Shown piece after piece: positions 496 through 62,035 of a DNA stretch of 64,000 bases. The notes under the pieces are model-generated. The model ran no database searches, was not told the DNA's origin, and saw only the letters and a list, made by a program, of their open reading frames with translations. The number at the start of each line of letters is the position of its first letter. The first letter of the stretch is position 1. The stretch is from contig NZ_QMEL01000002.1 in assembly GCF_003390885.1 (NCBI RefSeq), positions 248,001-312,000 of the forward strand. The letters run 5' to 3'. This DNA is from Pelagibacterium sediminicola (GTDB taxonomy: Bacteria > Pseudomonadota > Alphaproteobacteria > Rhizobiales > Devosiaceae). Both the position numbers and the translations under genes were made by a program.

Positions 496-633
496 GCATC
501 GCTGCCCCCCTCACCCCCAACCCCTCTCCCACGGGGGAGAAGGGAGCTCGTGTGGCTACCCCTCGGTTCCCCTTCTCCCCTTGTGGGAGAAGGGGAACCG
601 GCGAAGCCGGGTCGGATGAGGGGGCAGCGATGC
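496..633. repeat. Palindromic repeat family A, copy A1
   Basis: A GC-rich element bounded by the inverted ends GCATCGCTG and CAGCGATGC. Inside are C-rich and G-rich arms and an inner CCGGCGAAGCCGG hairpin, and the arm CGGATGAGGGGG closes the element. Six more copies in this window share the same ends and arms. It fills most of the gap between the FAD oxidase and fabI. No coding role is proposed; the design is that of a small non-autonomous palindromic element. Confidence 0.85.
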
Positions 634-2837: not shown

Positions 2838-3214
2838 CTTGATAGTCTCCAAAGCAACCACCCGGCGCGGGGTGGTGCTAACAGTTCAGTGTGAGGGTCT
2901 TGTGACGGGGCGGGCGACTAAAGTCGCGAATTTCGCCAGGTCCAGGAGCTACACATGTATCCCGCGCGTTTAAGCGATACGGGATAAGCGGAGACGAACG
3001 CGGTCAGGCGTGCCCTAATGGTTTGATTTTTCATTTTGCCGTGCTCCAGCCTGACCTTGTCGCGCCCCACCGGGGTGCGACAATGGATCTTCTATCAAGA
3101 GTTGAGCGGAAAATCGAGGACGAATGTGTCAAATTGACAGTCCCTTGCGGAATTTCCTGCCTGTCAACGGCCCGAACACGCACCCGGTTGCAGCATGAAA
3201 GATCGAAAAAGCGG
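2838..3214. other. Gene-free interval with small palindromes
   Basis: No credible gene is seen in these 377 bases. The interval holds a short hairpin at 2857-2876 (ACCACCC/GGGTGGT) in the leader of the small gene, a 12-bp hairpin at 3057-3083 (TTGTCGCGCCCC, loop ACC, GGGGTGCGACAA, one G-T wobble) without a T-run, and the palindrome TGTCAAATTGACA at 3128-3140, which has the look of a repressor half-site pair. What these control is not clear, since the flanking genes both read leftward. Confidence 0.45.
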
Positions 3215-7981: not shown

Positions 7982-8107
7982 GCATCGCAGCCCCCTCATC
8001 CGCCCCTTCGGGGCACCTTCTCCCACGAGGGGAGAAGGAAACCAGGGGGGTTGCCATACGAGCCCCCTTTCCCCTCGTGGGAGAGGGGCCGGGGGTGAGG
8101 GGGACGC
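7982..8107. repeat. Palindromic repeat family A, copy A2
   Basis: Begins GCATCGCAGCCCCCTCATC and ends GTGAGGGGGACGCC, in the opposite orientation to A1. Inside, CACCTTCTCCCACGAGG pairs with later G-rich arms. It lies between kbl and the Lrp-type regulator gene, both on the minus strand, and directly upstream of the kbl ribosome-binding site. Confidence 0.8.
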
Positions 8108-8731: not shown

Positions 8732-11700
8732 ATGAACAAGATTGCGTCGGCATCGGGGGTGTTTTCGGAGTTTCTGGGACGGCCGCAAAGGGATGACGGG
8801 CCGTTGCGGGCGGCAATCACCGCTGCCACCCGCGTGCCCGAAATCCAATGCGTGCCGCCGCTGATCGAGGCCGCGGCGGTAACCGAAGCCCAGGCCGGAC
8901 GTATTCGCGCGCTGGCGGAAAAGACCGTCAAGGCCATCCGCGCGCAGGGCGCGGGCGCGGGCGTCGATGGGCTGATCCACGAATACGCGCTTTCCAGCCA
9001 GGAGGGCGTGGCGCTGATGTGCCTCGCCGAAGCCCTGCTGCGCGTGCCCGACAACGAAACCCGCGACATGCTGATCGCCGACAAGATCGCGCCGGGCAAG
9101 TGGCGCGAGCATCTGGGGGTCGACCGGCCTCTGTTCGTCAACGCGGCAACGTGGGGGTTGGTGGTAACGGGGCGGCTCGTGACCCCGGTGGACGAGCAGG
9201 GCCTGTCGCACGCCCTCAACCGGCTTTTGGTGCGCTCGGGCGAACCGGTGATCCGGGCTGGCGTGCGCATGGCAATGAAGATGCTGGGCGAGCAGTTCGT
9301 CACCGGCCAGACCATCGGCGAGGCGCTCAAGAACGGCCGCACCATGGAAGCCAAGGGCTTTTCCTATTCCTACGACATGCTGGGAGAAGCGGCGACCACC
9401 GCCCACGATGCAGACCGCTACATGGCCGACTATGTTGCCGCCATCCACGCCATCGGCAAGGCGGCTAAGGGCAAGGGCGTTTACGAGGGCCCCGGCATTT
9501 CAATCAAGCTCTCGGCGCTCCATCCACGCTATGCCCGCGCGCAATACGGGCGCGTCATGGGCGAGTTGCTGCCCCGGCTCAAGGAACTGGCCGCGCTCGC
9601 CAAACAGTACGATATCGGGCTCAATATCGACGCCGAGGAGGCCGACCGGCTAGAGCTCTCGCTCGATCTGCTGGAGGCGCTGGCGCTCGATCCGGCGTTT
9701 GCGGACTGGAACGGGATCGGTTTCGTGGTGCAGGCCTATTCCAAGCGCTGCCCCTTCGTCATCGACTGGATCATCGACCTGGCGCGCCGCTCGGGCCACC
9801 GGATCATGGTGCGGCTGGTCAAGGGCGCCTATTGGGACACCGAAATCAAGCGCGCGCAGGTGGATGGGCAAACCGGCTTTCCGGTGTTTACCCGCAAGGT
9901 CTATTCGGACGCGTGCTACATCGCCTGCGCCAGAAAACTGCTGGCGGCGCCCGATGCCGTCTTCCCCCAGTTCGCAACGCACAACGCACAGACCATGGCG
10001 ACGATCCACGAGATCGCCGGGCCCGATTTCGAGACCGGCAAATACGAGTTCCAGTGCCTCCATGGCATGGGCGAGCCGCTTTACGAGCAGGTGGTGGGCA
10101 AGAACAGGCTCGACCGCCCCTGCCGCATCTACGCACCCGTGGGCAGCCACGAGACGCTTCTGGCCTATCTCGTGCGGCGGCTCCTGGAAAACGGCGCCAA
10201 TTCGAGCTTCGTCAACCAGATCGCCGACGAGGATATTCCCGTTGCGCGGCTGGTGGCCGACCCGGTGGAGGTCGCCAAAACCATCTCGCCCCTCGGCAGC
10301 CCCCACCCCGAGATAAAGCTGCCGGGGGATATTCTTGCGGCGGGCCGGAAGAATTCGCTGGGGTTGGACCTGGCGAGTGAAACGGCGCTGGCGGAATTGC
10401 GGAAGGGACTGGATGAGACGGTTGGTGCCGAGTGGATTGCCGGCATCGCTGCCCCCTCATCCGACCCGGCTTTGCCGGGCCACCTTCTCCCACAAGGGGA
10501 GAAGGGAAACCCGGAAGCAGCCACACGAGCCCCCCTCTCCCCTCGTGGGAGAGGGGCCGGGGGCGAGGGGGCCAGCGATGCCAGCCGCCCCGTCCTCAAC
10601 CCGGCGGACCACCGCGATGTCGTCGGCACCGTCATCGAGCCGGGCATCGAGACCATTTCCCCGGTCATGGCGCGCGCCGTATCTGCCGCCCCCGGATGGG
10701 CGGCAACCGCGCCCGAAGAGCGTGCCGCCGCCTTCATCCGCGCCGCCGATATGATGGAAGCGCGCATGGCTACTTTCATGGGTCTTGCCATGCGCGAGGC
10801 GGGCAAGACGGCGGCCAATGCAGTGGCCGAGATACGCGAAGCGGTGGATTTCCTGCGCTATTACGGCCAGCAGGCTGCCGAAAGCTTCGACAATGCCACC
10901 GACAGGCCACTCGGGCCGGTGGTGTGCATTTCGCCGTGGAATTTTCCGCTGGCCATCTTCACCGGACAGGTCGCCGCGGCGCTTGTGGCGGGCAACCCGG
11001 TGGTTGCCAAACCCGCCGAGGAAACCCCGCTGATCGCGCAGGAGGCCGTGAACCTGCTGCATGAGGCGGGCATCCCCGCAGATGTGCTGCAGTTTGTGCC
11101 CGGCGATGGCAGGACCGGTGCGGCGCTGGTGGGCCATGAGGCCACCTCGGGTGTGATGTTCACCGGCTCGACCGAAGTCGCCCGACTGATCCGGGAGCAG
11201 TTGGCCGGGCGTACGCTTGAGGACGGCTCGCCCGTGCCGCTGGTCGCCGAAACGGGCGGGCAGAATGCGCTGGTGGTGGACACGTCCGCCCTCACCGAGC
11301 AGGTCGTGCTCGACGTGCTGGCTTCGGCCTTCGACAGCGCCGGGCAGCGGTGTTCGGCGTTGCGGGTGCTATGCCTTCAGGAAGAATGCGCGGACCGCAC
11401 CCTCACCATGCTCAAGGGCGCGACGGCTGAATTGGCGGTAGGCAACCCCGCCCGGCTATCGACCGATGTGGGCCCGGTGATCACCGCCGAGGCGCGCGAC
11501 GGCATCGAAACGCACATCGCCACGATGCGCGAGAAGGGACATGCGATCACGCAGGTGCAATTGCCCGAAGCAGCGCGGCACGGCACGTTCGTTGCCCCCA
11601 CCATCATCGAGATCGACGACATTTCGGAACTGGGCCGCGAGGTGTTCGGGCCGGTGCTGCATGTGGTGCGGTTCCGGCGTCAGGACCTCGGCGCGCTGAT

Positions 11701-15405: not shown

Positions 15406-15546
15406 GCATCGCTGGCCCCCTCACCCCCAACCCCTCTCCCACAAGGGGCGGGGGGGCTCGTATGGCAGCCCCACGATCACCCTCCTCCCCTTGTGGGAGA
15501 AGGTGGGCTTTTGCGAAGCGAAAGGTCGGATGAGGGGGCTACGATG
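15406..15546. repeat. Palindromic repeat family A, copy A4
   Basis: Begins GCATCGCTGGCCCCCTCAC and ends GATGAGGGGGCTACGATG, with the same C-rich and G-rich arms as the other copies. It lies between ygfZ and the HD hydrolase gene and ends about 50 bp before the latter's start. Confidence 0.82.
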
Positions 15547-15597
15547 TCTGCTCGATGGGCTGGAATAGAATACTGTCTGGGGGGACAAACCTGAACC

Positions 15598-17968: not shown

Positions 17969-18380
17969 CGCTTACAACTTTTTACGCCACAACTACTCAA
18001 GCGCCGGCGGAACGCATGACCCCGCATTTCACATACGCACGGGACCGGTTTGTCCGGGCGATCCAGCGGTGATGCACGGTTGCAACAGCCGATAGATCAA
18101 ATGCCGACGATTTCGATGATCGGTTATTAGGGTTAGAAAGGTGTAAACAGGGAAAATTTGGTGGCGATTGGGCTGGCGTAAGGCGCGAGGGAGGAAATAT
18201 TGGGGCCAATTTTGCCAAGTGTTCACGGCTGGCATCGCTGCCCCCTCATCCGACCTCCGCTTCGCTCCGGCCACCTTCTGCCACAAGGGGAGAAGGGAAG
18301 CTCCGTGGATGTATCGGCTCTTGGGCCCCCCTCTCCCCTCGTGGGAGAGGGGCTGGGGGTGAGGGGGCTGCGGTGCTTCC
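17969..18380. other. Gene-free interval containing repeat A5
   Basis: The first 260 bases hold no convincing gene; they would contain the promoter of the SleB-type gene. The remainder is repeat A5 (18232-18376), which ends at the stop codon of the PPDK-like gene. No start codon with a good ribosome-binding site or conserved-looking protein was found on either strand. Confidence 0.5.
18232..18376. repeat. Palindromic repeat family A, copy A5
   Basis: Begins GCATCGCTGCCCCCTCATCC and ends GGTGAGGGGGCTGCGGTGC, with an inner CCGCTTCGCTCCGG hairpin. It ends 4 bp before the PPDK-like stop codon, so the 3' end of that mRNA would carry the folded element. Confidence 0.82.
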
Positions 18381-48521: not shown

Positions 48522-48654
48522 CGCCCCCCCTCACCCCCAACCCCTCTCCCACGAGGGGAGAGGGGGGCTCGCAAGCCGAAACATCCACGGATACCCTTCT
48601 CCCCTCGTGGGAGAAGGTGGCCCGGCGAAGCCGGGTCGGATGAGGGGGTTGCGG
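48522..48654. repeat. Palindromic repeat family A, copy A6
   Basis: Contains the family arms CCCTCACCCCCAACCCCTC and GGTCGGATGAGGGGG with the inner CCGGCGAAGCCGG hairpin; the left end (CGCTGTCACCGCC) is diverged from the usual GCATCGCTG. Between the DsbA-like gene and smc. Confidence 0.8.
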
Positions 48655-61867: not shown

Positions 61868-62014
61868 CATCGCTGCACCCCTCACCCCCAACCCCTCTCC
61901 CTCAAGGGGAGAGGGGGGCTCAAGAGCCGATACACCCGCAGGATTCCCCTTCTCCCCTTGCGGGAGAAGGTGGATCGGGCCAAAGGCCCGAGACGGATGA
62001 GGGGTGCAGCGATG
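61868..62014. repeat. Palindromic repeat family A, copy A7
   Basis: Ends CATCGCTGCACCCCTCAC and GATGAGGGGTGCAGCGATG are fully matching inverted repeats, with CCTCTCCCTCAAGGGGAGAG and CTTCTCCCCTTGCGGGAGAA inside. It lies between the riboswitch and the lipoprotein gene, about 70 bp upstream of the riboswitch. Confidence 0.85.
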
Positions 62015-62035
62015 CCTGCCATAAGGCGAAGCAGC

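Follow-up and report, generated by a model that had tools for sequence, protein, structure and literature searches.

Introduction

High-copy palindromes that stand beside the gene thought to move them, a Y1 tyrosine transposase, make up the REP-RAYT and REPIN systems, and RIME is one named rhizobial repeat. Repeats that form part of proteins are also on record, in the portions of the literature covered here, from Rickettsia, Wolbachia and REP-bearing genomes. The Rickettsia palindromic elements (RPEs) are described in the relevant sections of PMC2229807 as palindromes of 105–146 bp with a stem-loop and inverted ends, which are either intergenic or fused in frame in conserved proteins, and no linked nuclease appears in those sections. 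For the intragenic REPs of the GTAG and CGTC families, the corresponding sections of PMC3733652 report that more than half of the inserts are dimers or groups, coding for 20–30 residues, and that in the recB gene of Xanthomonas different REPs are found at about the same site. These REPs are given as units of 20–40 bp that end in GTAG or CGTC, and the discussion of them extends to tyrosine transposases.

Here we describe a palindromic repeat that lies in frame in the putA gene of the source genome (called G000), that is absent from this gene in most relatives, and whose kind recurs in cobN. The window, i.e. the whole stretch of DNA that was analyzed, is 64 kb long. The repeat has in common with the palindromic elements of Rickettsia and Wolbachia that it is read in frame in conserved genes, and it is of the RPE-like kind also in being a high-copy palindrome found in putA and cobN while relatives lack it. 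Going by the published descriptions, however, repeats of the putA type are set apart from RPEs by a host that its PutA places near the Rhizobiales, by CobN sites that are hit by different repeats, and by a linked nuclease. Nor is the element a GTAG/CGTC REP, as it is 147 bp long, has GCNRGCATCGC ends and half-units that match over about 45–65 bp, and is adjoined by DUF559. The likeness to REP-RAYT and REPIN lies in high-copy palindromes beside a candidate mover gene, here with no target duplication; the difference is that the candidate is DUF559, a Vsr-like nuclease, and not a Y1 tyrosine transposase.

Pfam lists DUF559 (PF04480) as a domain of unknown function, and this domain is what the genes linked to the repeats share with EDxHD homing endonucleases and Vsr. 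In a passage of a cyanobacterium paper (PMC9403480) that contains no palindromic repeats, a DUF559 gene is assigned to the EDxHD family of homing endonucleases, and in the part of PMC12907096 concerned with Caulobacter the domain is described as Vsr-like, with a proposed repair role. Homing to one site fails to explain dispersed repeats. In the mainly open-access literature on DUF559, Vsr-like nucleases and Rhizobiales palindromes, in the portions covered, we found no link between DUF559 and palindromes. Protein-coding palindromes are thus already known from the RPEs and REPs, while the nuclease link was not found in print within these sources.

The present case adds a further group in which filled and empty sites can be compared in related species and in which hot spots are hit repeatedly. 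It also offers a small enzyme as candidate, one whose activity can be assayed. The mover of the palindromes thereby becomes directly testable, and DUF559 gains a candidate role.

Results and Discussion

The palindromic element in putA

A sequence-only reading of the window had proposed that a 141-bp palindromic repeat is inserted exactly in frame in putA. The inverted ends are indeed present, with GGCATCGCTG at 10442–10451 and its reverse complement at 10573–10582, and the 141 bp make up 47 whole codons, the first of which, at 10442, is putA codon 571. There are four exact matches of GGCATCGCTG in the window, compared to 0.53 expected, and none of 100 shuffles reaches four. The proposed span of 10442–10582 captures the core of the element but not its full extent. 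The consensus of 109 element ends, taken from copies in the same genome, is GCNRGCATCGC, and repeat finding places the inverted arms at 10439–10456 and 10568–10585. The element is therefore better drawn as 10439–10585, which also consists of whole codons (Table 1).

Table 1. Features of the window, with positions counted from its first letter.
Feature	Positions	Strand	Basis
putA, bifunctional proline dehydrogenase / P5C dehydrogenase, 1264 aa	8732..12526	+	ORF; Pfam
Palindromic element, 147 bp = 49 codons (residues 570–618)	10439..10585	+	inverted arms, fold, repeat matches, end consensus
Left terminal inverted repeat GCCGGCATCGCTG, 13 bp	10439..10451	+	sequence, arms, end consensus
Right terminal inverted repeat, minus strand GCTGGCATCGCTG, 13 bp	10573..10585	-	sequence, arms, end consensus
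Self-complementary stretch CCCGGCTTTGCCGGG of left half; copy-variable, ends mostly paired	10465..10479	+	sequence, copy comparison
Left-half hairpin CCTTCTCCC-loop-GGGAGAAGG	10483..10505	+	sequence, fold
Right-half hairpin CCCCTCTCCC-loop-GGGAGAGGGG	10533..10556	+	sequence, fold
Other element copy	496..633	-	DNA search, copy alignment
Other element copy, right end unmatched	7982..8104	+	DNA search, copy alignment
Other element copy	15406..15547	-	copy alignment
Other element copy	18232..18368	+	DNA search, copy alignment
Other element copy	48526..48653	-	DNA search, copy alignment
Other element copy	61868..62015	-	copy alignment

The element is built from two inverted half-units with strong hairpins in each. 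Its stretch has a folding energy of −95.2 kcal/mol (z −7.15), which is equaled by none of 200 shuffles. A small self-complementary stretch swaps between copies (CCGGCTTCGCCGG, TTTCGCTTCGCGAAAG, CTCCGCTTCGCTCCGG, CCCCTTCGGGG), and the paired ends are kept in most versions. A comparison with Rfam gave 11 matches, none of which reaches the gathering score and 8 of which are to microRNA families; these are regarded as chance hits on a hairpin.

In the host protein, Pfam places the domains PRODH at residues 24–70, Pro_dh-DNA_bdg at 78–189, Pro_dh at 198–496 and Aldedh at 617–1059, so that the insert is located in the PRODH–P5CDH linker, the site between the catalytic domains that had been named in the sequence-only reading. 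This linker is only 8 residues long in the PutA structure solved for S. meliloti (5KF6), and the alignment to it breaks between residues 578 and 587. In an AlphaFold model of residues 195–1064, calculated with 19 relatives, residues 577–614 have a pLDDT below 50, and the inserted segment is predicted to be disordered.

The check proposed along with the original claim was an alignment of PutA from relatives. PutA is encoded by each of the other 12 genomes in the genus, and the 47-residue segment is missing from 10 of them. The two exceptions are G006, which has a full-length copy of the element at the same place and in the same frame, with the 47 codons aligning without a gap, and G008, in which the left half of the element is found in the same frame. 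Between the W/F position and NPADH there are 54 residues in G000, 54 in G006 and 31 in G008, compared to 12–18 in the seven insert-free congeners that were counted. Among more distant PutA loci, the 80 best of the 592 matched were read by eye; all of them are without the insert, and their linker columns hold 10–30 letters versus 56 in G000. In other genera of the family, of which 20 genomes were matched, none of the 19 PutA loci read has a repeat-like insert.

Copies elsewhere in the genome

The source genome is a draft assembly of 3.24 Mb in 46 contigs. A DNA search with the element yields at least 66 matches with E ≤ 1e-3 (40 of 149 first-look candidates were scored), many of which are one place found on both strands, and the stretches fetched from the genome contain at least 70 distinct copies, some of them partial. 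It had been stated that the other copies are intergenic; this is correct for most of the copies read, but one of them is in frame within cobN. As judged from the longest frames through part of the 70 copies, putA and cobN are the only recognizable genes that host one. A Pfam scan of 10 copy-spanning frames gave no family for 8, and the remaining 2 (an RNA methyltransferase and a COX2 subunit) have their domain only after the element. With domains absent or confined to the part after the element, these copies look to be located upstream of genes or antisense to them.

No target-site duplication was detected among the 45 copies with both ends, the best excess over shuffled pairing being 0.11 at 2 bp. 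The element resembles a MITE in that it has terminal inverted repeats, no transposase gene and many copies. Related DNA is present on 50 plasmid records, 39 of Rhizobium and 6 of Shinella, and at 23 of the 25 plasmid matches listed there is no annotated feature at the repeat. This related plasmid DNA constitutes a likeness to the GC-rich repeats of Rhizobium, Shinella and Sinorhizobium.

Recurrent insertion in CobN

The cobN gene of G000 contains an element copy in frame, and the insert lies within a single Pfam CobN match. In the CobN alignment of the genus, which comprises 12 genomes (G009 was left out, being a fragment), repeat-like inserts occur at two sites. At site 1, which is unreadable in G001, they are found in 4 of 11 genomes (G000, G003, G011 and G004). 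Site 2 is filled in 6 of 12, namely G000, G003, G011, G006, G008 and G007 (short and degenerate in the last), and is empty in G005, G010, G001, G002, G012 and G004. Both sites are filled in G003 and empty in its near relatives G010 and G002.

The inserts vary in sequence, frame and orientation, and the one in G008 gives a match to the element on the opposite strand. For site 2, the fold z is −9.0 in G000 and −7.4 in G011, and for site 1 the values are −3.0 (G000), −2.4 (G003), −1.4 (G011) and −3.4 (G004). The site-1 insert of G000 (L221, 2080–2262) looks like a different type of repeat, HPTPALPIKGRG...SPLVGEVGRG. On the basis of these alignments, CobN is a protein with at least two hot spots, which bear different repeat-derived inserts among congeners.

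Across the family, 31 CobN loci were compared, some of them partial, and repeat-like inserts are frequent at sites 1 and 2 as well as in at least two other places. Insertion places beyond the two sites were noted near CobN residues 172 and 863 (loci L240, L241, L251 and L258). The inserts are not always harmless, G046 being an unclean case: its CobN reads with one TGA, and the matched repeat is in the CobN region, outside the extracted open frame (L244, about 2890–3065). Perhaps the gene has been broken by the insertion, or the draft sequence contains an error.

In two genomes from another genus of the same family, G038 and G048, site 2 contains the nuclease domain itself. The G038 protein has 231 extra residues, consisting of repeat peptides around a DUF559 domain (L300, 1270–1950), while in G048 the DUF559 domain is in frame with the repeat halves arranged otherwise (L324, about 2100–2700). 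A solved relative of the G038 domain is 3hrl, an 'Endonuclease-Like Protein' (E 8e-17). PADLOC, applied to two DUF559 sequences, returned one weak match, to DpdF (E 2e-5).

DUF559 as candidate mover

We hold with good confidence that the repeat was inserted in frame and that DUF559 is the leading candidate for the mechanism. The putA segment is most probably a non-autonomous, MITE-like palindromic repeat inserted in frame in the short PRODH–P5CDH linker. It is probably tolerated there because one frame is free of stops and encodes a coil rich in Pro, Gly and Ser. Such repeats have entered genes repeatedly, namely PutA in three congeners and the two or more CobN hot spots in many species. DUF559, as a Vsr-like nuclease, would be the mover, its genes often being flanked by half-repeats or enclosed between them, and the short elements would be gene-less versions of the DUF559 units. 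The specific proposition that DUF559 moves these repeats is held with less assurance, the balance tipping slightly in its favor.

Somewhat doubtful, yet a serious alternative, is that the repeats are moved otherwise, by a RAYT-type transposase or by replication or repair slippage at hairpins, with DUF559 being a passenger or a repair nuclease that tolerates nearby repeats. The domain is widespread, and its discussion as a Vsr-like repair nuclease in the Caulobacter part of PMC12907096 also agrees with this alternative. The two DUF559 domains within CobN speak against it, and the distribution of the genes and their flanks, considered in the following, bears on it in both directions.

In the genus, DUF559 gives 11 matches above the Pfam cut-off, in 8 of 13 genomes. 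These are exactly the genomes with at least 7 repeat matches, and the 5 that lack the domain have 0–1. G003, which is nested among DUF559-less genomes, has both the nuclease and the repeats, and G012, which is grouped with G008, has neither, which indicates that the co-occurrence reflects more than one event. In G006, the DUF559 match is partial (model positions 39–108; L266, 1501–1707) and the repeat matches number only 7, which gives the appearance of a system that is dying out.

Of 61 genomes of the family, 38 have DUF559 and 41 have the repeat, and the presence of DUF559 agrees with that of at least 3 repeat matches in 50 of them (Fisher p 6e-7, uncorrected for kinship; within-genus permutation p 0.008). 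The 11 discordant genomes, of which 8 have DUF559 with few repeats and 3 have repeats without DUF559, are in line with a different mover. A point against a different mover is that a repeat match is located 5' of all 11 DUF559 genes of the genus, three of these matches being weak (E 1e-5 to 1e-3). It is important to point out that these loci are not independent, since about 7 of the 11 look like one shared locus by their neighboring sequence. In G014 (L331), four near-identical tandem repeat peptides, PSSAPSGHLLPRGEK, were observed 5' of DUF559 and within its open frame.

Hairpins were scanned at the 31 of 34 DUF559 loci that were long enough, counting windows with z < −4. A strong hairpin is present within 250 bp on the 5' side at 17 of the 31 loci and on the 3' side at 9, with the other bins containing 0–4. 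As a control, one was found 5' of PutA or CobN genes at 1 of 38 loci (one more was skipped, and the starts were estimated from the match). At 27 of 45 loci, the two flanks of DUF559 are inverted repeats to an extent that none of 100 shuffles attains, compared to 2 of 45 and 1 of 45 at the control distances. Two flanking palindromes would satisfy this test whichever way they are oriented, so that a pass is not proof of a single unit. The 18 loci that fail include L283, where a contig end cuts the locus and the 3' flank is misplaced.

These inverted half-repeats around DUF559, which disfavor another mover, might correspond to the ends that a MITE shares with its autonomous relative. In the genus itself, however, they are seen at only 1 of 11 loci, and the remainder have the repeat on the 5' side only, which is what a different mover would allow. 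For the DUF559 gene with the nearest element in G000, there is a complete copy on the 5' side and none is matched on the 3' side.

From 42 matched plasmid records, 13 named plasmid loci from three phyla were picked for taxon spread. Repeat halves are visible by eye 5' of DUF559 in all 13 and on both sides in 10, again disfavoring another mover, and 9 of the 13 pass the inverted-flank test. The 5' hairpin has z ≤ −4.0 in 8 of the 13, all of them alphaproteobacterial. At all 5 loci from Deinococcus and Synechocystis the hairpin z is not strong (−0.3 to −3.0), with half-repeats visible by eye. On a plasmid of Deinococcus psychrotolerans (L344, 1390–1930), a single DUF559 gene whose inverted ends exceed 50 bp is located between paaD and paaZ, a site that belongs to the phenylacetate operon. 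In Sphingomonas parapaucimobilis (L337, 1400–1890), a DUF559 gene separates sufB from sufC, and half-repeats flank it on either side. In two Deinococcus species (L345 and L346), the gene is found at different places of the hpa cluster, each roughly providing the empty site for the other.

The insert in CobN and the flank of a DUF559 gene in the same genome share a repeat in 9 of 21 pairs (G038 was excluded because the two are one place there), with the caveats that the G046 match is outside the open frame and that two more pairs match outside the inserts. A comparison of Shinella with two Sinorhizobium records reveals additional DNA, made up of the repeat and DUF559, in the interval from a Zn-dependent hydrolase to hydA. 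The divergence of the spacer is too great here for a junction to be drawn, and an empty site with an exact junction for a DUF559 unit was not found.

Taken further, DUF559 genes bounded by inverted half-repeats might represent a new class of small mobile elements, in which a Vsr/EDxHD-like nuclease replaces the transposase. The abundant GC-rich palindromes of Alphaproteobacteria, with similar ones in Deinococcus and Synechocystis, would be their gene-less derivatives. Proteins would evolve as these palindromes repeatedly enter, in frame, loops that accept an insertion, the linker of PutA and the hot spots of CobN being examples, and in some cases the whole nuclease would be delivered into the host protein. 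We put this generalization forward tentatively, giving it a little less than an even chance.

History of the putA insert

We now turn to what has happened to the insert within putA. In a tree of PutA and CobN, in which G005 is poorly placed, G000 and G006 are sisters with a support of 1.0. Together with the identical junction and frame and the gapless alignment of the 47 codons, this would agree with a single insertion in their common ancestor, the peptide having since been kept by selection as useful protein. We consider this unlikely. Over the 47 codons, the inserts of G000 and G006 are 79% identical with a pN/pS of 0.95, compared to 0.22 in the rest of putA, and their differences are spread over the codon positions as 11/9/9, that is, without bias. 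No selection at the protein level is thus visible in the insert by pN/pS or codon positions in this pair.

The divergence of the insert DNA is, in addition, lower than that of the silent sites in the rest of putA (pS 0.52), which also disfavors an ancestral insert kept for its peptide. The same holds for the fact that the G006 putA copy, 82% identical to the putA copy of G000, is barely closer to it than to other G000 copies (about 79–83%). The low divergence fits with later parallel insertion, with conversion from other copies, or with a constraint on the DNA instead of the peptide. Since G012, which pairs with G008 (0.986), is without the insert, the presence in three congeners could possibly be the result of one to three insertion events.

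From the comparison of these sequences, the putA insert is most plausibly a tolerated passenger. The sequence-only reading had seen in it a repeat becoming protein sequence. This remains valid in the sense that the repeat is encoded and retained, but the pN/pS of 0.95 gives no sign of selection making it a useful protein.

Another option considered was that the repeat acts as DNA or RNA inside putA, through mRNA structure, attenuation or protein binding. The very strong predicted fold and the low divergence at all codon positions would be compatible with such a role, which we nevertheless judge to be very improbable, considering that the PutA genes of most relatives do without the repeat, that G008 keeps only half of it, and that the copies elsewhere occur in many contexts. 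Finally, an assembly artefact, conceivable for a draft of 46 contigs with many repeat copies, can be practically dismissed, as the corresponding position in G006, a separate species with a PutA 81% identical, is occupied by a full-length copy that has diverged, and the reading frame is intact on both sides of the insert.
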